A stretch of DNA of 64,000 bases from Acholeplasmatales bacterium (GCA_017454375.1 JAFTDB010000031.1:62001-126000), one strand, 5' to 3'; positions 41,613-56,033 are shown, numbered from the stretch's first letter. Numbers and translations are program-made. Notes: generated by a model not told the origin, from the sequence alone.

Positions 41613-41644
41613 AAAAAGCTACAGTTTTATGCTGTAGCTTTTTT
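41613..41644. terminator. Bidirectional terminator
   Basis: Stem AAAAAGCTACAG/CTGTAGCTTTTT with a seven-base loop. The stop codon of the deacetylase on the minus strand lies in the loop. Confidence 0.92.
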
Positions 41645-42457
41645 GATGTAATCTTCAATTGTGATAAATTCAAATCTATTATCTTTTAGATAATTTATTA
41701 GCCATTCAATCTTCTTAGGATATGATTTAAAATTAGCTTTTAAATAGATTATATCTAAAGGATTGAATATCTTAATATTAGGCTTTTTAGATTTAGATAA
41801 TTCAAATGGATGAATATAGAATACATAGCTATTATGATTCTTAAGATATTTCATTATCTTATGCTTCATAATTACCCATGGTGTAAGACGCATAAAAGCG
41901 CCACCACCTATGTTACTGCCTTTAAAAGAAGTAGGTGGTATTTCATAAAATAAATTATCTGTATAAATGTTATCATTTAATTCTTTATATGATTTTAATT
42001 CATCTAATTTATTAGTATTATACAAGGCAGAAGAATCATATTTAAAATGTTTTTTAATTATATTTAATTTATAATTATTTATTTTAAACATTGGGGCTCT
42101 AAAGCCTTCTACATCAATATTAAGTATATCTTTAAATCTATTTTTAGCTTTAACTAATTTATCTTCAAATTCTTCATTATCAATATTTAATATTGAATCA
42201 TGAAGATAGCCATGAAGAGATACCTTATGGCCATTTTCTATGGCATTTTTTAATGTATCAACATTATCATCTAGTGATGAATCAACTGTAAATAATGTTG
42301 ATTTAATATTGTATTTATCTAAAATATTTAAATAATTTTCTACTCCGTCATAACAATTATTGCCTATCCTTTTTGGATTTCTTTTTCTTACACAGCTTGT
42401 GTCATAAAAAGATTCTATATCCATGGTGAAGAAGGCATATTTAGTTAAGGTGTTCAT
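41627..42457 (-). CDS. Polysaccharide deacetylase (NodB-type)
   Basis: A 276-residue CE4-like protein that would remove acyl groups from a glycan. Motif 1 is FFTMDIESF, motif 2 GHKVSLHGYLHD supplies metal-binding His residues, motif 3 is EGFRAPMFKIN, and a late VFYIHPFEL provides the C-terminal His. There is no signal peptide or TM helix, which is unusual for peptidoglycan deacetylases and closer to the cytoplasmic or DUF3473-like branch that works on polysaccharide precursors. It overlaps the upstream hydrolase gene by 17 bases and shares its transcript. Confidence 0.85.
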   Translation of the reverse strand: MNTLTKYAFFTMDIESFYDTSCVRKRNPKRIGNNCYDGVENYLNILDKYNIKSTLFTVDSSLDDNVDTLKNAIENGHKVSLHGYLHDSILNIDNEEFEDKLVKAKNRFKDILNIDVEGFRAPMFKINNYKLNIIKKHFKYDSSALYNTNKLDELKSYKELNDNIYTDNLFYEIPPTSFKGSNIGGGAFMRLTPWVIMKHKIMKYLKNHNSYVFYIHPFELSKSKKPNIKIFNPLDIIYLKANFKSYPKKIEWLINYLKDNRFEFITIEDYIKKATA

Positions 42458-43400
42458 TACAAAAATCCTTTACTGCCTTATCATATTTTTCTAGGTTGTT
42501 GATTCTAATGTGGGAATGAGCTCCATGATCGAACCATACGATTTGTTTTTCACCGGGAGTAATGTTATATAAATATTCAGATTTATGAGGTAAAGAGAAT
42601 TTATCTTCTTTACTATATAAGAATAAGATAGGTTTATCTAGCTTTAATAATGCTTTTTCTGGACCATATGATTTCATATCAACACCAGTTTTAATCTTCA
42701 TTATTAATCTAACAAATTCAATGAATGGATGAACTGGTCTTTTTTCATAAATCATATGAGTTTTGAATGTCTCATAAAATGTTGTGTACATTCCATCTGT
42801 GATAATAGCCTTGAAGTAGTCCTTATCAGTAGAAGTAATAGCGTATAGTGCTGTTGCGGAACCTATACAAATACCATGTAGAACGAATTTATTAATATTA
42901 TATTTTGTATGAATTAATTTAGCCCAGGCTTGGATATCCTTATATTCCTTTAAGCCTACTGTATTATATTTGCCTTCAGATAATCCATGTGCACGTGAAT
43001 CAACTACTAAGATGTTGTAGCCCATATCTGAATATGGTTTAGCATAATAATATGAATACCATAAAGATTCGGTTCTACCTTGTAAGATGATTACACATTT
43101 ATCAGAACCGAAATTGAAATATTCACCTACTAAATGTAGTCCATCATTTTCAATTTCAACTTCCTCAATTTTGTCTTTAAAGCCTGCTGCCCATTCAAGA
43201 CCAATATTGTACATTGCCATCTGTTCAACATTATCAGGGGCGCTGCATTCTCTTAGCCATTTATTTTTATCATTTCTTACTAGCTGGGCATTAAATACCT
43301 TATTTGCGATAATGAATGGAGGAAGAATTCCAAATAAAATTATCACAAGAAGTACAATTCCTATTATTAAAAATGTAATGCCAACTGCGGACATTAACAT
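42441..43400 (-). CDS. Membrane-anchored alpha/beta hydrolase with Cys at the nucleophile
   Basis: A 319-residue hydrolase with an N-terminal hydrophobic helix (about 6-30). The fold is clear: VIILQGRTESLW, VVDSRAHGLSEGKYNTVG, PILFLYSKEDKFSLPHKSEYLY and DHGAHSHIR with the His. At the nucleophile elbow the usual GxSxG reads GICIG, with Cys178 encoded by TGT. The same position is Ser in the three other hydrolases of this region. A Cys nucleophile occurs in dienelactone-hydrolase-like enzymes. It resembles the protein at 44565 most. ATG 43400 follows GGTGGTGAT. Confidence 0.87.
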   Translation of the reverse strand: MLMSAVGITFLIIGIVLLVIILFGILPPFIIANKVFNAQLVRNDKNKWLRECSAPDNVEQMAMYNIGLEWAAGFKDKIEEVEIENDGLHLVGEYFNFGSDKCVIILQGRTESLWYSYYYAKPYSDMGYNILVVDSRAHGLSEGKYNTVGLKEYKDIQAWAKLIHTKYNINKFVLHGICIGSATALYAITSTDKDYFKAIITDGMYTTFYETFKTHMIYEKRPVHPFIEFVRLIMKIKTGVDMKSYGPEKALLKLDKPILFLYSKEDKFSLPHKSEYLYNITPGEKQIVWFDHGAHSHIRINNLEKYDKAVKDFCNEHLN

Positions 43401-44564: not shown

Positions 44565-45485
44565 ATGGCTTGGTATTATATTTTATTAATTATTTTAGGA
44601 ATAATTTTAATAATTTATTTAGTGACTTTGTGGTTCTCTTTTCGCACTGTTTTTAAGCGTGGAAGTAATAAGCCTTTAACTGAGGTTGATTTAACAAAAA
44701 CACATTATGCTCCATATATAGATGTTTTATATAAAAACATGAATGAGATGTTTTCAAGACAATATGAAGAAGTATATATAAATAATGGTAAAATAAGGTT
44801 ATATGGTAGATATTTTAATAACAATTCTAAAACAACAATTATAATGGTTCATGGATATCGTGCAGTGCCTTATAGTAATTTTTCATATCAAGCTAATTAT
44901 TTTTTAAATCATGGCTATAATATATTTTTTCCATATCAAAGAGCACATGACAAGTGTGATGGTAGGTTTATTACATTTGGCTATAAGGAGATGCATGATA
45001 TTAATAAATGGGTAGAATTTATCCATGAAAAATATCAGGTAAATATTATCCTATATGGTACATCTATGGGGGCAGCTACAGTAGTTAATACGGCTGGTAA
45101 TTATCACCATGATTATTTAAAGGGAGTAATAGAGGATTGTGGATTTTTAAGGGCTTATGATGCTATAAAAGAAGCATTTAAAAATAATGGGTATCATCCA
45201 AATTTTGTAATGCAGCCATTAAGATTATGCACAAGACTTGCAGGGTTTAGTATTATTAGGAATCAGCCTTATGATAATGTAGGTAAAATAAATGTTCCAA
45301 TAATTTTTATTCATTCAAAATTAGATAAGGAAATACCTTATCAATCTGCAGAAATATTATACGAAAAAGCAAATAATCCTAAGCTTCTAATATTAAATGA
45401 AATAGGAGGCCATACAACAGGGTTTATGACCTCAAAAGAAGAAACTAAAGAAGAAATATTAGAGTTTATGAAAAAAATGATTTAG
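44565..45485 (+). CDS. Membrane-anchored alpha/beta hydrolase
   Basis: A 306-residue hydrolase with a strong N-terminal hydrophobic helix (about 3-28). Motifs: TIIMVHGYRAVPYS, PYQRAHDKCDGRFITFGYKE, nucleophile elbow YGTSMGAATV with Ser167, PIIFIHSKLDKEIPYQSAEILY and GGHTTGF for the His. It is most similar to the gene at 42441, which has Cys at the nucleophile position. It is probably cotranscribed with the hydrolase at 43510. Substrate unknown. Confidence 0.88.
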   Translation: MAWYYILLIILGIILIIYLVTLWFSFRTVFKRGSNKPLTEVDLTKTHYAPYIDVLYKNMNEMFSRQYEEVYINNGKIRLYGRYFNNNSKTTIIMVHGYRAVPYSNFSYQANYFLNHGYNIFFPYQRAHDKCDGRFITFGYKEMHDINKWVEFIHEKYQVNIILYGTSMGAATVVNTAGNYHHDYLKGVIEDCGFLRAYDAIKEAFKNNGYHPNFVMQPLRLCTRLAGFSIIRNQPYDNVGKINVPIIFIHSKLDKEIPYQSAEILYEKANNPKLLILNEIGGHTTGFMTSKEETKEEILEFMKKMI

Positions 45486-47411: not shown

Positions 47412-48341
47412 TTATTTTTCAAGTAATGAAGTTAACAATTTAGTTTCTTCAACCAAATCATCAGATGTGTATTTGCCTAAGAAGTAAGCTGCATTAAGAC
47501 CAGGTCCTACGTTGATAGCACTTGAAGGGAATACTTCAGTTAATACAACTTCCTTAGGTTTGATTTCTGTTTCAATTAATTCTTTAAGCTTTAATGCTTT
47601 TTCATATCTATTAGTTTCAGCAATTAAGATGATTTGATCTTGTGGGTTTTCAATTTCAGCCTTGATGTAATCAATGATTACCTTGTAAGCTTGTTTTTCA
47701 CCCTTTGCCTTACCAATTACTGTAACAAGTCCATCTGGGTTGAAATCAGCAAGTGGCTTAATACCGATTAGTTGGCCGAAGAAGGCAGCTGGATGAGAAA
47801 TTCTACCCTTTGAAGCAACGAATGATAAGTCATCTAACCAACCAGTTTGGTGAATGTTACGAGAATGATCCTCTAACCATTTTGCAACCTCATCAATTGA
47901 TTTTCCTTCACTTCTTAGAATGGATGCATTGATTGCCATTAAGGCGATACCATTTGAATATTTCTTACTATCGATACAAATGATTTTACTATCTTTTGCT
48001 TCAGCTAGAGCTAGGTCTCTACCTTGGCATGCGAAATCATATGAACCAGATAATTTAGATGAAATAGAAATTGATAATACATCAAATCCTTGCTTAGTAT
48101 ATTCTAAGAATTTTTCTTTATATTCTTCAGGAGATGCTGGAGAAGTAGTATAAGTATTTGACTTATTTTTTAAGCCTGAGAAGAATTCCTTTTTTTCGAA
48201 TCCATCCCATTCAAGAAGGCCTTCATGTTCCTTACCATCTGGTGTAGTAAGATGGCCCTTAATGTATTCGATATCAAATCTTTCTCTTAAATCTTTTGAT
48301 AAATCTGATTGAACATCAGTAATAATAATAAATTTTTTCAT
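47412..48341 (-). CDS. DegV-family fatty-acid-binding protein (FakB-like)
   Basis: DegV proteins bind one fatty acid and, as FakB, present it to the kinase FakA to make acyl phosphate. The 309-residue protein has the family N-terminus IIITDVQSDLSKDL, TSPASPEEYKEKF with the conserved Ser/Thr near the carboxylate site, ISISSKLSGSYDFA, and KGRISHPAAFFGQLIGIKPL. A FakA-like gene lies at 49602 on the other side of a divergent promoter region, which supports the FakB reading. Confidence 0.92.
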   Translation of the reverse strand: MKKFIIITDVQSDLSKDLRERFDIEYIKGHLTTPDGKEHEGLLEWDGFEKKEFFSGLKNKSNTYTTSPASPEEYKEKFLEYTKQGFDVLSISISSKLSGSYDFACQGRDLALAEAKDSKIICIDSKKYSNGIALMAINASILRSEGKSIDEVAKWLEDHSRNIHQTGWLDDLSFVASKGRISHPAAFFGQLIGIKPLADFNPDGLVTVIGKAKGEKQAYKVIIDYIKAEIENPQDQIILIAETNRYEKALKLKELIETEIKPKEVVLTEVFPSSAINVGPGLNAAYFLGKYTSDDLVEETKLLTSLLEK

Positions 48342-48447: not shown

Positions 48448-48476
48448 TTGAATATACATAATCTTTATGGTAAAAT
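48448..48476 (+). promoter_or_regulatory. Promoter of the lipid operon
   Basis: TTGAAT (48448-48453), 17-base spacer, extended -10 TGGTAAAAT (48468-48476). It precedes seven closely packed genes ending at 55999. Confidence 0.75.
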
Positions 48477-48525: not shown

Positions 48526-49578
48526 ATGGATAAAAAATTGACTATTGTAATTCCTGCATATGAGCCTGATTCTCATCTGCCAGAATTGATTGACAATTTA
48601 AATAATTTTTTTAATGATTTCAACATTATAGTTGTTAATGATGGATCTAAAAACTGTGATGAAATATTTAATGATGTAAAGCAAAAAAAGAATGTCTTAG
48701 TTTTAAATCATGAAGTAAACAAAGGCAAAGGTGAAGCACTTAAGACAGCATTTAGATACATTAAAGACAACAAGATGGAATCTGTTATAGTTACAGCTGA
48801 TAGTGATGGGCAACATAAGCCACTTGATATAAAAAGAATTTATGAATTTTATTTAGCTCATAATGGTGGTCTAGTATTAGGAAGTAGAAAGTTTGAAAAC
48901 GAAGTTCCTGCTAGATCTAGATTTGGTAATGATGTATCAAGAGGGCTTATGAGAATGTGTCTTCATAAGCATCTTAATGATACACAAACAGGTTTAAGAG
49001 CTTTCGATTCAAATTTATTAGATTTCATGCTAAACGTAAAAGGCTCTAAATTTGAATATGAGATGAATATGCTATCAGAAGCAGTAAGAAATAATATTCG
49101 TATTAGAGAGCTTAAGATAGAAACAATTTATATTGATGAAAATAAAGGATCTCACTTTAGACCAGTAAGAGACTTCTTAAAGATATCAAATTCAATTTGT
49201 AAATATAAAATAACATTCTTACTAACATTAGTGCTTGACTTTGTATTATTCTTTGTATTTTCAAAGGCATTAGCTAATTTGGGAGAATATGCTTATATTC
49301 ATGCTTCATATATATCAGCTGTATTATCAGTTGGTGCTTATTTAGTAATGAATATAGCTTCAATACTTTATGGTGATGGTAATATATTAAGCCATAAGAA
49401 GCTACCACTAATATCTGGTTTGGTATTATATGTAGGCTTAAATGTTTTAATTGTATATTTATTTAAATTATTCTTAGGCAACCTACTTGTTGATAAGGTA
49501 ATTAGTTTATTTATTATTTTAGTATTAGATTTAATTTTGAACTTCTTTGTGTTAAGAAAATCAAAATTATATGAATAG
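48526..49578 (+). CDS. GT2 glycosyltransferase fused to a GtrA-like membrane domain
   Basis: Residues 1 to about 225 form a dolichol-phosphate-mannose-synthase-like GT2 enzyme: LTIVIPAYEPDSHLPELI, VVNDGSKNCDEI, the DxD-like TADSDGQHKP, and DTQTGLRAF near residue 160. Residues about 230-345 form four hydrophobic helices of GtrA type, a family linked to flipping polyprenyl-linked sugars. The fusion would make and possibly translocate a lipid-linked sugar. It heads the lipid operon; the FakA-like gene follows after about 20 bases. Confidence 0.87.
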   Translation: MDKKLTIVIPAYEPDSHLPELIDNLNNFFNDFNIIVVNDGSKNCDEIFNDVKQKKNVLVLNHEVNKGKGEALKTAFRYIKDNKMESVIVTADSDGQHKPLDIKRIYEFYLAHNGGLVLGSRKFENEVPARSRFGNDVSRGLMRMCLHKHLNDTQTGLRAFDSNLLDFMLNVKGSKFEYEMNMLSEAVRNNIRIRELKIETIYIDENKGSHFRPVRDFLKISNSICKYKITFLLTLVLDFVLFFVFSKALANLGEYAYIHASYISAVLSVGAYLVMNIASILYGDGNILSHKKLPLISGLVLYVGLNVLIVYLFKLFLGNLLVDKVISLFIILVLDLILNFFVLRKSKLYE

Positions 49579-49601
49579 TTTTTTAATGGAGAATGAGACT
49601 T

Positions 49602-50927
49602 ATGGAGAGCATTAATGGCTTAAAATTAAAATCTCTTCTTTTATTTTCGCTAAAAAATTTAAAGAAGAATGAAAAGATTTTAAATGATTTAAATGTATTT
49701 CCAGTACCTGATGGAGATACAGGAACTAATATGAGATTAACATTAGAATATGGATTACTTCACGCTAATGATGAAGAATTTGTAGGAGATTATGCTAAAA
49801 ACTTATCCTTACAAATGTTAATAGGTGCTAGAGGTAATAGTGGTGTAATTCTATCACAAATATTTAGAGGAATCTCTAAAGGATTAAAGAATTTACCAGA
49901 AGCTAGTGTTTATGATTTTATTAATTCTTTAATACTAGGTTATCAAACAGCTTATAAGGCTGTCAAGAACCCAGTAGAAGGATCTATTCTAACTGTATGT
50001 AGAGTAGGAATAGAAAATGTAAAAAATCAAAAATTTGATACATTAGAAGACTTCTTTAAAACACTTTGTAAATCTATGAAGGAAGTATTAGATGATACTC
50101 CTAATATGCTACCTATTTTAAAGGAAGCAAATGTTATAGATTCAGGTGGTGCTGGCTTATATTCCATCTTTGAAGGAATGCTAGCATACTTTGGTGAAGA
50201 TAACTTCATTACTCTAGATAGTAAGAATAAAAAGAAATTAAAATATAAGAAAGCTACAGAACATAAATTAATTTCATATATCGTAGTCTCAAATGGAGAT
50301 GGCATTAAAAGCTTATTTGAGGAGCTAGGTGCTGACTTTATAATTGAGGCTGATAGAAGTATGAATGTAGCAACTAATGATTTTATTGAAACAATTAATT
50401 CAACTAATAGTGACTACATTATTATGCTTCCAAATAATAAAAATAATTTCTTAGCTTGTAGACAAGCAGTAGAAATTACTAAGGCAAAGAATGTATACAT
50501 TCTAGATAGTGAATCATTGATATCTGGTTATTTCGCCTTATCAATGATTGATTTAACTAGTGATAATTTTGAACTTCAATTATCAAATGCTAAAAAAGGA
50601 ATTTCAAATGTAGATAGTATTGAAATAACTAAAGCTATCAAAAATAACCAAATCAATGGTATTGATTTTAAAAAGGGTGAATATATCGCATTTTGTAATA
50701 ATAACCCATTATCTTCTGAAGAATCTATTTTAGATGCCTTAAAGGAAGGTATAGATAGAATTGATTTAGAAGATAAAGAAATAATGGCTGTATTTTATGG
50801 ATCAGAGCTATCTGATGAATTAAAAGAAGAAATCAATAGCTTTATTTATGATAATTATGGAGATTTAGAAATTGGTGAAGTAGAAGGTAACCAAGATAAT
50901 TTTGAACTTATTATAGGAATTAGTTAG
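49602..50927 (+). CDS. FakA-like fatty acid kinase (DhaL domain protein)
   Basis: Residues 1 to about 190 are a DhaL-type kinase domain with NVFPVPDGDTGTNMRLTLE (Asp metal ligands) and GARGNSGVILSQIFRG, as in FakA/YloV. The middle and C-terminal parts fit the FakA extension but the total, 441 residues, is about 100 shorter than typical FakA. FakA phosphorylates fatty acids bound to FakB/DegV. GGAGA (49588-49592) abuts ATG 49593 but lies nine bases before ATG 49602, which I therefore take as the start. The next gene begins eight bases after its stop. Confidence 0.87.
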   Translation: MESINGLKLKSLLLFSLKNLKKNEKILNDLNVFPVPDGDTGTNMRLTLEYGLLHANDEEFVGDYAKNLSLQMLIGARGNSGVILSQIFRGISKGLKNLPEASVYDFINSLILGYQTAYKAVKNPVEGSILTVCRVGIENVKNQKFDTLEDFFKTLCKSMKEVLDDTPNMLPILKEANVIDSGGAGLYSIFEGMLAYFGEDNFITLDSKNKKKLKYKKATEHKLISYIVVSNGDGIKSLFEELGADFIIEADRSMNVATNDFIETINSTNSDYIIMLPNNKNNFLACRQAVEITKAKNVYILDSESLISGYFALSMIDLTSDNFELQLSNAKKGISNVDSIEITKAIKNNQINGIDFKKGEYIAFCNNNPLSSEESILDALKEGIDRIDLEDKEIMAVFYGSELSDELKEEINSFIYDNYGDLEIGEVEGNQDNFELIIGIS

Positions 50928-50935
50928 GAGTATTT

Positions 50936-52834
50936 ATGGTAAACGCTAATAAAATTGTCAGAGATAGATGTAATAGACTAACAAATAGTGATAAACAATT
51001 TAAAGATATTTTTGAAATAATGTTTATTGATAAAGATAATATATTAGCTGAAAGAAACGATGGATATCGTATTTTTAAGACTACCTATAATGAGGCTTAC
51101 CATAGGATATATGATGTAGCATATTCAATTAATAAATCATATCCTGATTTAAAAAATGAATATGTAGGTATATCTTGTGAATCATCAGTTGAATGGATAA
51201 TTATATTCTGGGGTATACTTGCTAGTGGAAATAAGCCATATTTAATCAATATGAGACATCCTAAGCCTTTATCTAATAACATCTTAAAAAGCTTAAATGT
51301 TAGATATGTTTTAGGCTTTGATTTTGGATATGAGGCAAAGTTAATTAAATATGACGAGCTATATTATGATGCCCCTAGTGGATATGAACCTCATTTTGAA
51401 AATGAGATAGCTTTATCAACTTCCGCAACTACTATGAAGGAAAAGATAATATTTTATAGTGGTGAAGAGATATCTGCCCAAATATTTAATTGTAAGGCCA
51501 TCCTAAAACAAAATAAGCAAATTAAGAAATTCTATCATGGCTATTTAAAACAATTAGTATTCCTACCTTTATACCATATCTTTGGTTTAATGGCTGTTTA
51601 TTTATGGTTCTCATTCTTTGGTAGAACATTTGTATTTTTAAATGATTATTCACCAGATACAATTCTAAAGACTATCCGTAAGCATGAGGTTACTCATATC
51701 TTCGCTGTACCTATTTTCTGGTCATCTATTGAGCGTGAAATCAATAAAGGTGTAGAAGAGAAGGGAGAGAAGACTAAAGCTAAATTTAATAGAGGTATTA
51801 ATTTAGCTTTGAAACTTCAAACTATAATGCCACATCTAGGCTTAAAGATATCTAATAGATTATTACGTGAGGTTACAAATAACTTATTTGGTAAATCAGT
51901 TAGATTTTGTATTTCTGGTGGTGGTGCCGTTAAGGATTCTACAATGCGTATAATTAACGCATTAGGCTATCCACTATATAATGGATACGGAATGACTGAA
52001 ATTGGTATTACATCAGTTGAATTATCAAAAAATGTTAATGATAGATTAAAGAATTCAATTGGTTATCCATTCTCTTCAGTTGAATATAAGATTGAAAATA
52101 ATGAATTATATGTAAAAGGAGAATCAATTTCTCATAAAGCATTAATAGATAATAAGCTTACAGTAGTTGAAGATTATTTCAAAACTAATGATATTATGCA
52201 TCAAGATAATGATGGAAGATATTATATAGATGGTAGAGTAGATGATATCTATATTAATGAAACAGGAGAAAACATCAATCCTGATTTAGTTGAAAAACTA
52301 TTAAATTTAGATTTCTTAGTTAACTCAACAGTAACTACTTACGAAGGTAAGCTTGTTTTAATTGCCCAAATTAAAGAATATAATTCTAAAGCTACACTTG
52401 ATAATATCAATAAGCGTATTAGTGATGAGCTAGCTAAGCTACCACTAAATTATACTATTTCAAAATATTATTTCACTTATGATGATTTAATGGCATCAAC
52501 TGCCATCAAGGTATCTAGAAAATATGTAGAATATCATATTTCAAATGGTGATATTAAATTATTAAGCTTTGATAATTTAAAGGTAGACACAGAAGAAATT
52601 AATTCTAAATTAGTAAATGAAATAAAAGAAATTATGGCTGAAATTCTAGGTAAGAATGTTAGTGATATTAATGATAATGATAATTTCTTTTATGATCTAG
52701 GTGCATCATCACTTGATTATTTTACATTAATTAATGAATTAAATAATAAATATGATATTAGCTTAGAATTTGATGATAATGCGAATATGGTTAATCCAGT
52801 TAAAATAAGTTCTATAATTGAGGAAAGAATATGA
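50936..52834 (+). CDS. Adenylate-forming acyl ligase fused to a carrier-protein domain
   Basis: Residues 1 to about 545 are an ANL-family (acyl-CoA-synthetase-like) domain: NGYGMTEIGI, FKTNDI, GRVDDIYINETGENINP, and the late Lys in STAIKVSRK. Residues about 555-632 are an acyl/peptidyl carrier domain with the phosphopantetheine site GASSL (Ser592). Such a fusion could load an acid onto its own carrier. The ATP-binding P-loop is unusual: LSTSATTMKEK (160-170) lacks the glycines of the TSGTTGxPK consensus. It overlaps the acyltransferase gene by four bases, suggesting acyl hand-over between the two. Substrate unknown. Confidence 0.87.
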   Translation: MVNANKIVRDRCNRLTNSDKQFKDIFEIMFIDKDNILAERNDGYRIFKTTYNEAYHRIYDVAYSINKSYPDLKNEYVGISCESSVEWIIIFWGILASGNKPYLINMRHPKPLSNNILKSLNVRYVLGFDFGYEAKLIKYDELYYDAPSGYEPHFENEIALSTSATTMKEKIIFYSGEEISAQIFNCKAILKQNKQIKKFYHGYLKQLVFLPLYHIFGLMAVYLWFSFFGRTFVFLNDYSPDTILKTIRKHEVTHIFAVPIFWSSIEREINKGVEEKGEKTKAKFNRGINLALKLQTIMPHLGLKISNRLLREVTNNLFGKSVRFCISGGGAVKDSTMRIINALGYPLYNGYGMTEIGITSVELSKNVNDRLKNSIGYPFSSVEYKIENNELYVKGESISHKALIDNKLTVVEDYFKTNDIMHQDNDGRYYIDGRVDDIYINETGENINPDLVEKLLNLDFLVNSTVTTYEGKLVLIAQIKEYNSKATLDNINKRISDELAKLPLNYTISKYYFTYDDLMASTAIKVSRKYVEYHISNGDIKLLSFDNLKVDTEEINSKLVNEIKEIMAEILGKNVSDINDNDNFFYDLGASSLDYFTLINELNNKYDISLEFDDNANMVNPVKISSIIEERI

Positions 52835-54123
52835 TTGTTTGGTTACTTTATGTTATAGGCATTATTTTAGCATGGCCTATTCAGCTTATTTTCTTTAAAA
52901 GAAAAACATATTATGTAAATAAAAAAGCCCAATCTAGATGGATTAAGGGTGGAGCAATCTTGATATCTAACCATAAATCATTTAAGGATTTTATGGTTTA
53001 TATCTTTGCCTTCCCATTTAGAAAGATATATTGTCTTATGAGTGAAAAGGTATTTGGCATTAATAAGATGGTATCTTTCTTATCTATGGTTATGGGTGGA
53101 ATCTTAGTAGATAGAAGAGATTATAACTTTGGCTTTATTGAGAAATCTGTAGAGCTTTTAAATAAAAATAAATTATTAATGGTATTCCCAGAAGGAAAGC
53201 TTCCTACATCTACTCAGATGGGGGCATTCTATCCAAGCTATATTATGATAGCTTTAAAATCTGGTAAGCCTATTATCCCTTTATATACTCCAGGTAGATA
53301 CGGAATATTTAAAAGGGCTAGAATGGTAGTTGGAGAGCCAATCTATATAAAAGATTATATAAAGACTGATAATCCAACTAAGGAAGAATTAAATGAAGCT
53401 AATATTAAAATTAGAAAGAAAGTATTAGAGCTTGAAGCATTCTGTAAGAAAAAAATGTTAGAAGAGAAATATCACAGATTCTTTTCTTTTAGACATTTCT
53501 TACAGGATTTTGGAAGACTTCATGTATTCTTTATTGATTTAATTGTCTTAAGATTTAAAAGAGCTAATTTAGGAGAAAAGAAATATAAACAAAAGATTAA
53601 TGACAATTTAATTATTGTTTCTAATCACGTCTCATTTTCTGATCCTTTAATCATTATGGGTACTTATTTAAGAAGACGTCAGCACATGCTTGTTAGTGAG
53701 GTTGTCTATGATGGCCATAAGATAAGAAGTAGAGCTTTAAATGATTTAGGATGTATCAGAATTGATAGATATAATTTTGATGCCAAAGCGATGGAAAAAT
53801 GCGAAGATATATTAAATGGTAAGGGAGTTGTATCATTATTTCCTGAGGGTCATATATCTCGTGAGGGATTATCTGAATTCAAAATGGGGGCAGCCTACCT
53901 ATCATTAAAGACTAATACTAGGGTGCTACCTTTATATATTGAATATAGATCTCGTGGATATTTCCGTTTTATAGTTCATTATGGTGACTTGGTTGATCCA
54001 AATGATCTAGATGAGAATTTAAATAGAAATGAAAAAATAAAATTATTAAATGAAAAGATTTATAATAATATAAAGGGAATGGAAGCAAAGTTCGGTGGAA
54101 AAATGGAGTCTAAGAACGCCTAA
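52831..54123 (+). CDS. Tandem PlsC-type acyltransferase (two LPLAT domains)
   Basis: A 430-residue protein holding two complete 1-acylglycerol-phosphate-acyltransferase domains. Domain 1 has NHKSFKD (H48, D53), VDRRDY and FPEGKLPTS; domain 2 has NHVSFSD (H266, D271), IRIDRYNF and FPEGHISREG. Both HX4D active sites and both FPEG loops are intact. An N-terminal hydrophobic helix (about 2-20) would hold it at the membrane. The start overlaps the ligase-carrier gene by four bases (ATGA). Two successive acylations of a glycerol or sugar lipid is a plausible role. Confidence 0.9.
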   Translation: MIVWLLYVIGIILAWPIQLIFFKRKTYYVNKKAQSRWIKGGAILISNHKSFKDFMVYIFAFPFRKIYCLMSEKVFGINKMVSFLSMVMGGILVDRRDYNFGFIEKSVELLNKNKLLMVFPEGKLPTSTQMGAFYPSYIMIALKSGKPIIPLYTPGRYGIFKRARMVVGEPIYIKDYIKTDNPTKEELNEANIKIRKKVLELEAFCKKKMLEEKYHRFFSFRHFLQDFGRLHVFFIDLIVLRFKRANLGEKKYKQKINDNLIIVSNHVSFSDPLIIMGTYLRRRQHMLVSEVVYDGHKIRSRALNDLGCIRIDRYNFDAKAMEKCEDILNGKGVVSLFPEGHISREGLSEFKMGAAYLSLKTNTRVLPLYIEYRSRGYFRFIVHYGDLVDPNDLDENLNRNEKIKLLNEKIYNNIKGMEAKFGGKMESKNA

Positions 54124-54463
54124 AAAGGGCGATATAATTAGAATAAGCCTAACTAAGAAATATTACCATTATGGAATATACGCAGATGATAATACTGTAA
54201 TCCAATATGGTAAATATGATGATATGCTAAAGAAGGATGCGAAGGATGTAGAGGTACTGATTACTTCTATAGAGGATTTCGCGGGTGGTAAGTTTATCGA
54301 GGTAAGGAATTATTCTTTAGTTGAAAGATTAACTAAAAGAAGTCCTGATAAAATTATTAGCTTAGCTATGTCAAGATTAGGCGAAAAGAAGTATAATATA
54401 AATAATAACAATTGTGAGCACTTTGTATATGAGTGCACATTTAAAAATAAAAAGAAGATTTAG
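54095..54463 (+). CDS. LRAT-like (NlpC/P60-superfamily) protein
   Basis: A 122-residue single domain of the lecithin:retinol-acyltransferase/H-rev107 type. The catalytic His is in YYHYGIYADD (H25) and the Cys in the hallmark NCEHFVYE (C107). These enzymes form acyl-Cys intermediates and act as phospholipases or acyltransferases, in line with the surrounding lipid genes. No signal peptide. The only sensible start is GTG 54095, which overlaps the acyltransferase gene by 29 bases; the ribosome binding site is weak. The C-terminus is basic (KNKKKI). Confidence 0.85.
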   Translation: MEKWSLRTPKKGDIIRISLTKKYYHYGIYADDNTVIQYGKYDDMLKKDAKDVEVLITSIEDFAGGKFIEVRNYSLVERLTKRSPDKIISLAMSRLGEKKYNINNNNCEHFVYECTFKNKKKI

Positions 54464-54473
54464 AGGTATTAAA

Positions 54474-54881
54474 ATGTTTTGTCCAAAATGTGGTAAAGAA
54501 AATCCAAATGATGCATTATTTTGCTTAAATTGTGGAGAAAGATTAGAAAAAGTTGAAGTGGTTGATGCTGAGGTAGTAGATGATATTCCAGCAGATAAAC
54601 CACAAGAGGAAGCTAAATGCTGGAAGATGTTTGCTAAAGCAGGTAGAATCGTAGGTATTGTTGCAATAGCAACTTGCTGGATTCCATATTGCTTTACATT
54701 ATCATTTAGTATTCATGGTATTGTAGCATCTGCACTTGGTAAGAAATCAGTAGATAAGACAGCTGATCAAGAAGCTACTACTGGTTTAACACTAAATATT
54801 TTAGCTTCAGTATTATCAATCACAAGCTGTATTATTTGGACTATTATTTTCGCAATCATTGCCGCAGCATCAAATAGATAA
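54474..54881 (+). CDS. Zinc-ribbon membrane protein (135 aa)
   Basis: Begins with a zinc ribbon, MFCPKCGKENPNDALFCLNC (two CxxC pairs), followed by an acidic linker and two hydrophobic segments at about 60-88 and 105-132 (CWIPYCFTLSFSIHGIVASAL and the C-terminal helix). The frame is open from 54414, but ATG 54474 directly precedes the zinc ribbon and follows TTAGAGG. Zinc-ribbon/TM proteins are common in Bacillota and rarely characterised. Its place in the lipid operon is the only clue to its role. Confidence 0.82.
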   Translation: MFCPKCGKENPNDALFCLNCGERLEKVEVVDAEVVDDIPADKPQEEAKCWKMFAKAGRIVGIVAIATCWIPYCFTLSFSIHGIVASALGKKSVDKTADQEATTGLTLNILASVLSITSCIIWTIIFAIIAAASNR

Positions 54882-54895
54882 GAGGGGTGATTTCA

Positions 54896-55999
54896 TTGTT
54901 TAATAAACATGATTTAACCAGAGACACATTTATGCTAGATGGTAAATTTGCTAAATGTGGATATGACTGGTGGTGGCACAATTTTACAGGCTATAACGCG
55001 AAAACAGGTGAAGCAAAGACATTCTTCATCGAGTTTTTTATCTGTAATCCTGACTATGCAGATGAAAAGCCAACATTTGGTCAGCTAGGTGAAACTCCAT
55101 CATATTTAATGATTAAGGCTGGTGCTTGGGGTAATGAGCCTAGACAGCTACATCGTTTCTTTGGCTTAAGAAAGGTCGCAGTAAGTAAACTAATCCCATT
55201 TAGTGTAGCTGCCGATGAATGTTATCTAAGTGAAAAGAAGATAAGTGGAAGTGTCAACATCAGTAAGGAAGTAAGCCAACAACACCCTGAATACATGTGT
55301 GACTTTGGTACTATGAGATTCGATTTAAAAATCGAAAAGGATATAGCCTTCAATGTAGGATATGGTGCATCAAAGTTATTTAGAAAGATGAAAGCTTTTG
55401 AAATGTTTTGGCATGCTGAGGGCATGAAGACATATTATCAAGGTGAAGTAATCTTTAACGGTGAAAAATATATCGTAAGTAAGGATAACTGTTATGGATA
55501 TGCTGATAAGAACTGGGGCAAGGATTTTACATCTCCTTGGTTATGGCTATCATCTAATAATCTAGTTAGTAAAAAGACTGGTCAAAGACTAGAAAATAGT
55601 GTATTTGATATTGGCGGTGGAAAACCAAAAATTGGCTTCTTGAAGCTAAGAGGAAAGCTTTTATCAGCATTTTATTATGAAGGTAAATGTTATGAATTCA
55701 ATTTCTCTAAGTTCTGGACATTTACACGTACTAGATTTAAATCAACTGAAACAGAAGATGAGGTTATTTGGCATGTTGTTCAAAGAACATGGACAAATAA
55801 AATGGTTACTGATATAAAATGCAAGAAGAAGGAAATGCTTCTTGTAAATTATGAAGCACCAAATGGAAAGAAACTTCACAACCATCTATGGAATGGTGGT
55901 ACAGGTGAAGGAACTGTTAAGCTATATCATCACGGCAAGTTAATCGATGAAATCGAATGTAAAAATGTTGGCTGTGAATATGGTGAATATGATAAATAA
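54896..55999 (+). CDS. Tocopherol-cyclase-like lipocalin-fold protein
   Basis: A 367-residue protein with the pattern of the tocopherol-cyclase/carotenoid-hydratase-like family: Trp-rich GYDWWWHNFTGYNAKTGE at the start, MFWHAEGMKTYYQGEV in the middle, and the signature YGYADKNWGKDFTSPWLWL near residue 205. No tocopherol pathway is expected in such a bacterium, so the ligand is probably another isoprenoid, lipid or hydrophobic molecule. TTG 54896, eight bases after AGGGG, is the likely start; GTG 54887 is too close to the ribosome binding site. It is the last gene of the operon. Confidence 0.82.
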   Translation: MFNKHDLTRDTFMLDGKFAKCGYDWWWHNFTGYNAKTGEAKTFFIEFFICNPDYADEKPTFGQLGETPSYLMIKAGAWGNEPRQLHRFFGLRKVAVSKLIPFSVAADECYLSEKKISGSVNISKEVSQQHPEYMCDFGTMRFDLKIEKDIAFNVGYGASKLFRKMKAFEMFWHAEGMKTYYQGEVIFNGEKYIVSKDNCYGYADKNWGKDFTSPWLWLSSNNLVSKKTGQRLENSVFDIGGGKPKIGFLKLRGKLLSAFYYEGKCYEFNFSKFWTFTRTRFKSTETEDEVIWHVVQRTWTNKMVTDIKCKKKEMLLVNYEAPNGKKLHNHLWNGGTGEGTVKLYHHGKLIDEIECKNVGCEYGEYDK

Positions 56000-56006
56000 G
56001 CATAAG

Positions 56007-56033
56007 AAAAAGCCCTTTGTGAAGGGCTTTTAG
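56007..56033. terminator. Bidirectional terminator
   Basis: Stem AAAGCCCTT/AAGGGCTTT with loop TGTG, between the end of the lipid operon and convergent glgC. Confidence 0.93.

Follow-up and report, generated by a model that had tools for sequence, protein, structure and literature searches.

What might the seven closely packed genes at positions 48526-55999 of a 64,000 nucleotide stretch of Acholeplasmatales DNA (GCA_017454375.1 JAFTDB010000031.1:62001-126000; the whole stretch is called the window here, and its source genome is 1.8 Mb in size) do for their host, a gut bacterium related to Anaeroplasma that has no cell wall? A first-pass annotation of this DNA, made without database searches, proposed that they form one operon for an uncharacterised acyl-lipid pathway. 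Our comparison of the locus with its relatives gives a different core, which consists of a divergent fakB, fakA, an acyl ligase fused to a carrier domain, a tandem PlsC acyltransferase (PlsC2) and a PLAAT-type LRAT enzyme. The explanation that we favor, and to which we give about an even chance of being correct, is that these genes are a module for the salvage and (re)acylation of exogenous lipids that is like the LplT-Aas system in its working and is combined with FakAB/PlsX. From the predicted proteins we infer acyl activation and PlsC transfer strongly, and the acceptor, the product and the order of the steps weakly.

Relatives of the ligase (50–58% identity) are present in 10 of the 26 other genomes of the genus, one of them truncated at a contig end, and in most of these ten the gene order is fakB (divergent), fakA, a gene for a 186–195 amino acid (AA) protein, ligase, PlsC2 and LRAT. 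The core is also present, as fakB/fakA-PPTase-ligase-PlsC2-LRAT (PPTase, phosphopantetheinyl transferase), in Anaeroplasma bactoclasticum ATCC 27112 (L077), the only named isolate among the matches. Scattering of the genes in all relatives had been named as an outcome that would refute the proposal, and it is not what is found, because the fakA-ligase-PlsC(-LRAT) order is kept in the genus and parts of the set recur in 45 loci elsewhere. The genus and the wider comparison also give a core that differs from the set of seven originally proposed, so the latter is not one conserved unit. On a RecG, PlsX1 and FakA1 tree of the genus the module falls in two clades, and so it fits either an old gene set that has been partly lost or two gains.

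The family matches collected in Table 1 bear out the first-pass assignments of a FakA-like kinase, an ANL ligase fused to a carrier domain, a double PlsC acyltransferase, an LRAT-like acyl-Cys enzyme, a zinc-ribbon membrane protein and a divergent FakB-like protein of the DegV family, and the intact catalytic motifs agree with the functions supposed for them, namely activating a fatty acid, keeping it on a carrier and, for the two PlsC domains, transferring acyl groups. The ligase has the expected A-motifs; the Glu of its YGMTE motif (Glu355) is kept in 54 of 54 ligases and the A10 Lys in 49 of 54, and the Ser for phosphopantetheine attachment (Ser592) is kept in all 52 carriers. In the A4 motif an Asp binds the α-amino group of amino acid substrates, and the sequence LPLYHIFG is of the acyl/aryl-acid type. 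LPLYHIFG is conserved in the ligases, aligns with LPLFHISG of MenE and contains no such Asp. The predicted structure of the ligase (predicted local distance difference test (pLDDT) 86) finds its fold matches in MenE, adenylation-peptidyl carrier protein (A-PCP) didomains and the acyl-ACP synthetase AasS, while the carrier region matches fatty acid acyl carrier proteins (ACPs). We infer from these features that the ligase would load a fatty acid onto its own carrier domain. Carrier domains need a phosphopantetheinyl transferase (PPTase), and the 186–195 AA operon protein of the relatives is such an enzyme (PF01648, E 4e-11 in the clearest case and weaker in others). It is absent from the operons of the window and of the sister genome G019; the window genome keeps a PPTase elsewhere (at C12).

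The PlsC2 protein also matches the NCBIfam acyl-ACP–phospholipid O-acyltransferase model NF006386 in two stretches (E 1.7e-28, which is far below the equivalog cut-off). Acylation of one acceptor twice, as first suggested, is possible, but two PlsC domains are not evident in 18 of the 45 other loci. The LRAT protein has the permuted His...Cys dyad of the PLAAT/LRAT enzymes, its NCEHF motif and His25 are invariant, and a profile search with it matched the PLAAT3/HRASLS2 structures (E 3.5e-13). LRAT and the α/β hydrolases that are described below would edit acyl chains. In six loci (L064, L066, L067, L070, L071 and L072) LRAT appears to be fused to a 4'-phosphopantetheinyl transferase, a fusion that is confirmed by Pfam for L066 and assigned by profile match and length in the other five.

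The FakA of the window is 444 AAs long and retains all of the kinase motifs (PDGDTGTN, GARGNSG and IDSGGAG), yet it is short, since of the three FakA domains (DhaL/Dak2, middle and DegV-like C-terminal) it has no middle one. This middle domain, which a review describes as zinc-finger-containing (PMC10146087), is lacking from the FakA of the window and of G019 (L022:2953-4269) but present in the other relatives tested; the two genomes without it are the same two that have no PPTase gene in the operon. The fakB gene adjoins the module in every sufficiently long Anaeroplasma locus except L022. The FakAB-PlsX route converts a fatty acid to acyl phosphate and then to acyl-ACP (PMC10146087), and a housekeeping fakA-recG-plsX locus with PlsX1 is found in the genus. 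A second type of PlsX (PlsX2) is found in 10 of the 11 module-positive and none of the 16 module-negative genomes of the genus (Fisher p 1.3e-6), and it clusters in a tree with the operon-encoded PlsX proteins of other Bacillota and Acholeplasmatales (support 100/96, with long branches). Because PlsX2 tracks the module and groups with the operon proteins, the FakAB-PlsX route most likely belongs to the module system. A second, divergent fakA-recG-plsX copy in another genome of the genus (G002:C168) is distinct from the module PlsX and could be contamination.

A scan for ligase relatives of one genome per species (84,980 species) finds them mainly in gut and rumen genomes assigned to Lachnospiraceae, other Clostridia, Oscillospiraceae, Bacilli, Erysipelotrichaceae and Mycoplasmataceae. 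The neighbours in the 45 other loci, whose counts include closely related loci and several cut contigs and so are neither independent nor complete, are PlsC (44), α/β hydrolase (30), FakB (29), free ACP (29), FakA (28), MFS_2 transporter (28), two PlsC domains or open reading frames (ORFs) (27), PlsX (14), LRAT (14), GT2 glycosyltransferase (13), PPTase (12), a second, FadD-like ligase (10), a hormone-sensitive-lipase-like protein (5) and zinc ribbon (4). LRAT and hydrolase largely interchange, with hydrolase only in 25 loci, LRAT only in nine, both in five and neither in six. Three forms recur: a minimal fakB-fakA-MFS-ligase-PlsC-hydrolase in about ten loci, fakA-PlsX-ligase-PlsC2-ACP-LRAT, and a Fak-less ligase-MFS-PlsC-PlsC-ligase2-ACP followed by LRAT or PPTase. 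Three Mycoplasmataceae metagenome-assembled genomes (L084, L085 and L086) have a compact ligase-MFS-PlsC-PlsC-ligase2-ACP(-PPTase) cluster which is intact only if TGA is read as Trp (code 4). In one locus an 842 AA protein (L080:19055-21583), encoded beside fakA-PlsX, joins an AMP-binding ligase to a xylose-isomerase-like TIM barrel (AP_endonuc_2). The same scan also gave loci L088-L111, which appear to be false leads; the two proteobacterial ones inspected are pairs of ligase-like ORFs, and L088:9547-12807 (Planctomycetota) encodes a single 1086 AA chain with AMP-binding, carrier and class I/II aminotransferase parts. The description of the pathway as uncharacterised holds to the extent that we found no prior account of it, but its reading had to be revised because the relatives carry PPTase, free ACP, PlsX, an MFS_2 transporter and lipases.

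The transporter of the relatives has, within the genus, a close homologue in G019 only, and the window genome has none, so transport is not essential to the core. MFSD2A is a carrier of lysophosphatidylcholine (LPC), and MFSD2A structures are the four best Protein Data Bank (PDB) fold matches of the predicted MFS structure, narrowly above MelB (pLDDT 72, medium confidence). By this model the MFS_2 protein of the relatives would be a lysolipid importer.

In the window the seven ORFs lie on one strand with gaps of +14, +8, -4, -29, +10 and about +14 bp, between the divergent fakB-like gene and a hairpin (Table 1). The frames and spacing first described are real, and the tight spacing supports a single predicted operon. 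The single promoter that was also claimed is present as a consensus match, but in this AT-rich window such matches occur at the chance rate (72 found and 71.2 expected). No conserved operator is evident in the fakB-fakA intergenic region, where inverted repeats are mostly AT-rich and differ across species; the exception is an inverted repeat, GTCCTTTGT..ACAAAGGAC, common to the close relatives L023 and L026.

Table 1. Features of the module locus and its surroundings, in window coordinates
Feature	Position	Strand	Evidence and remarks
Polysaccharide-deacetylase-like protein	41627..42457	-	PF01522 E 1.3e-16
α/β hydrolase, same family as 44565..45485, adjoins deacetylase	42441..43400	-	Hydrolase_4 E 2.8e-10
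α/β hydrolase (lysophospholipase/esterase-like), module-associated family	44565..45485	+	Hydrolase_4 E 4.8e-10
fakB-like (DegV family) fatty acid binding protein, divergent	47412..48341	-	DegV E 5.5e-53; NCBIfam FakB1 E 1.9e-27, below cut-off
Putative operon promoter	48448-48476	+	TTGAAT-17-TAAAAT, TG of extended -10; consensus scan only
GT2 glycosyltransferase with C-terminal membrane region, polyprenyl-phosphate sugar transferase-like	48526..49578	+	PF00535 E 9.4e-20; NCBIfam PpgS/AglJ/ArnC below cut-off
fakA-like kinase, short form	49593..50927	+	Dak2 E 2.4e-32; FakA-like_C E 2.7e-50; no FakA-like_M
Fatty-acyl ligase (ANL) with fused C-terminal acyl carrier domain	50936..52834	+	AMP-binding E 3e-30; PP-binding E 2.9e-10
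Tandem PlsC acyltransferase, two Acyltransferase domains	52831..54123	+	PF01553 E 1e-37, two stretches; NHxxxxD and FPEG in both
LRAT/PLAAT-like permuted NlpC/P60 enzyme	54095..54463	+	PF04970 E 1.1e-21; His25/Cys107 dyad
Zinc-ribbon small membrane protein	54474..54881	+	Zn_Ribbon_1 E 1.1e-8
Tocopherol-cyclase-like protein	54896..55999	+	likely TTG start at 54896; PF14249 E 3.1e-6
Bidirectional terminator-like hairpin	56008-56031	.	separates operon from convergent glgC

Several genes of the locus accompany the core without being part of it. The first operon gene had been described as a GT2-GtrA fusion; its GT2 part is clear, but the membrane region is below the Pfam threshold, with no match to GtrA (PF04138) in the window protein and a nearly full-profile match at E 0.1 in one orthologue. 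Thirteen of the 45 other loci and six Anaeroplasma loci have a homologue of this GT2 within 10 kb of the module, and zinc-ribbon homologues lie directly 3' of LRAT in L062, L083 and L087; both genes are recurrent neighbours and not core. In several relatives GT2, the deacetylase, two α/β hydrolases and zinc-ribbon genes are found no more than about 10 kb from the module in varying orders: the deacetylase travels with GT2 in Anaeroplasma (near it in L023, L024, L025, L029 and L030), the hydrolase that adjoins the deacetylase is conserved near GT2 and the module in that genus, and orthologues of the other hydrolase, whose family is the one present in 30 of the 45 other loci, are beside or near fakB in L023, L025, L026 and L028. 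The tocopherol-cyclase-like protein matches its family just above the cut-off (26.9 vs 26.6 bits; a partial match, to profile positions 152–248 of 335), but its membership in the pathway finds no support. Its orthologues (53–69% identity) occur in 12 other genomes of the genus, or 13 of 27 with the window, with or without the module. It is an operon member in the window only, and we have dropped it from the pathway because in all nine relatives whose surroundings were examined the gene sits at unrelated sites.

How could the core work? In the salvage and reacylation that we favor, FakB would extract free fatty acid from the membrane, FakA would phosphorylate it and the module-type PlsX would pass the acyl group to ACP; in a parallel route the ligase would adenylate a fatty acid and load its own PPTase-primed carrier domain. 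The PlsC domains would then move acyl groups onto a lysolipid or a glycerophosphate-type acceptor, with the PLAAT-like LRAT and the nearby α/β hydrolases supplying or trimming acyl chains, and in the relatives MFS_2 would bring in the lysolipid, a step for which the window species has no copy.

Several findings tell against this scheme. The ligase is nearest to MenE rather than to Aas, an MFS homologue is absent from the window genome, and the neighbourhood counts are limited by relatedness and cut contigs as stated above. MFSD2A was not found by sequence profiles, a profile search of the PDB left the transporter unplaced, and the margin of MFSD2A over MelB is small in a model of medium confidence. 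The co-occurrence of PlsX2 with the module reduces to roughly two events when set on the species tree. Finally, ordinary phospholipid synthesis can do without the module, which is an addition to it, because the genome also has ACP, KAS, FabG, FabZ and AccC-like genes of type II fatty acid synthesis (FASII) (L119, named from KAS family matches and a reading of the ORFs), PlsX1 and PlsY. The FASII-like cluster contains an unusual KAS-KAS fusion of about 800 AAs (L119:9993-12368, G000:C32), which is also present in most other genomes of the genus.

The salvage idea can be carried further, tentatively and as something nearer to doubtful than to probable, to a widespread assembly line of gut Bacillota and Mycoplasmatota. 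There an MFSD2A-like protein would import lysolipid from digested host or diet lipid, and acyl groups would come from two separately supplied donors: the ligase, through its built-in carrier, and ACP, which FakAB-PlsX or a second ligase would load. Both donors would feed two PlsC sites that rebuild a membrane lipid, and a PLAAT-type enzyme would edit the product.

A serious rival, although we consider it an unlikely one, is that the module is an accessory de novo glycerolipid route, in which the two PlsC domains use acyl groups from FakAB/PlsX2 and the ligase-carrier to acylate both positions of glycerol-3-phosphate, giving phosphatidic acid with diet-derived chains and no import of lysolipid. 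In favor of this, 27 of the 45 loci have either two PlsC ORFs or two complete PlsC domains, the window genome lacks an MFS gene, and most loci have two separate acyl-donor routes (FakAB-PlsX-ACP or a second ligase with ACP, beside the ligase-carrier). However, the genome already has PlsY and PlsX1, the 18 loci without two evident PlsC domains do not fit, the profile matches of PlsC are to phospholipid acyltransferase models, and the MFS_2 and lipase genes are left unexplained.

The neighbouring genes could also be taken to mean that a specialised envelope lipid is made, with LRAT as an N- or O-acyltransferase (compare LnsA), PlsC2 building the diacyl part, and GT2 and the deacetylase adding an amino sugar (compare HexS/HexD). 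LnsA, a protein of the permuted NlpC/P60 type, is required for lipoprotein N-acylation (PMC7387801), HexD deacetylates a glycolipid (PMC10128005), and the deacetylase accompanies GT2 in five of the six Anaeroplasma loci that join the 13 others with GT2 near the module. We think this improbable, as most loci outside Anaeroplasma have no GT2, 31 of the 45 have no LRAT, and the GT2 family differs from that of HexS as annotated.

It is very unlikely that the ligase activates an amino acid, like DltA or an adenylation domain of a non-ribosomal peptide synthetase (NRPS), and keeps it on its carrier, so that PlsC, supplied with acyl groups by FakAB-PlsX or by the second ligase, would form a lipoamino acid. 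The ligase does have the A-carrier didomain architecture, NRPS A-PCP structures are among its best fold matches and many loci have another source of acyl-ACP, but we rank this reading low because the A4 motif is of the acyl/aryl-acid type without the Asp, and the carrier region resembles fatty acid ACPs. Chance assembly of the core from ordinary lipid genes lying together by accident, of which the tocopherol-cyclase-like gene is one case, is already refuted by the same core in the genus and in dozens of loci over Bacilli, Clostridia and Mycoplasmatota, including code-4 Mycoplasmataceae.

If the module is for salvage and reacylation, what does it join? FakAB is the usual Gram-positive route for fatty acids, whereas acyl ligases are the Gram-negative type (PMC10146087), and a module that combines the two would show how gut and rumen Bacillota and Mycoplasmatota turn diet or host lipids into membranes. 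It would also give the bacterial relatives of PLAAT, and perhaps those of MFSD2A, a physiological setting, and it is testable in A. bactoclasticum ATCC 27112 because this named isolate carries the core. In 5.4 million open-access papers, a coverage from which subscription journals are mostly absent, we found no description of the gene combination, in agreement with the first-pass annotation, which knew of no described pathway with such a gene set, and nothing useful on Anaeroplasma lipids. For S. aureus a study reports that there is no orphan acyltransferase to be found and that lysolipid is recycled by other means (PMC10404611).

Five known systems can be set beside the module. HexSDF of C. 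difficile likewise pairs a glycosyltransferase with a polysaccharide deacetylase that act on a membrane lipid, but HexS is annotated as similar to monogalactosyldiacylglycerol (MGDG) synthase, the window GT2 is of the polyprenyl-phosphate type, and no HexF-like flippase was found nearby. LnsA of the S. aureus LnsAB system is, like the window LRAT, a permuted NlpC/P60 protein of a bacillote; it differs in having a predicted signal peptide, in requiring LnsB and in having YiiX as its top match, whereas the window LRAT shows no clear signal peptide at its start and nothing like LnsB was seen beside it. The phospholipase A/acyltransferases PLAAT3 and HRASLS2 are the nearest solved structures to the window LRAT, with which they share the permuted NlpC/P60 fold, the His/Cys dyad and NCEHF; the module protein is a bacterial one of about 120 AAs, its gene shares an operon with those for ligase, carrier and PlsC, and in some relatives it is joined to a PPTase. 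The FakAB-PlsX system of Bacillota is matched by the FakA-like, FakB-like and linked PlsX proteins, which would make acyl phosphate and acyl-ACP, but the module has dedicated paralogues that stand beside the housekeeping fakA-recG-plsX locus and are joined to an acyl ligase, and the window FakA is without the middle zinc-finger domain.

The closest parallel in working is LplT-Aas of Gram-negative bacteria, in which LplT flips lysophospholipid and Aas then makes acyl-ACP and acylates the lysophospholipid (PMC11416262). The module differs in its hosts (Bacillota and Mycoplasmatota), in the FakAB, PlsX, PPTase and PLAAT-like proteins of its operons, and in its MFS_2 (MFSD2A/MelB-like) transporter, which is present in relatives only. 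Because its ligase is a separate, MenE-like protein with its own fused carrier instead of an Aas-type synthetase-acyltransferase fusion, and because the window genome has no MFS lysophospholipid transporter at the locus, we do not class the module as a member of that system. It appears to work alike: it has an acyl ligase and a PlsC-type acyltransferase that matches the acyl-ACP–phospholipid O-acyltransferase model, and the operons of its relatives have an MFS transporter as well.

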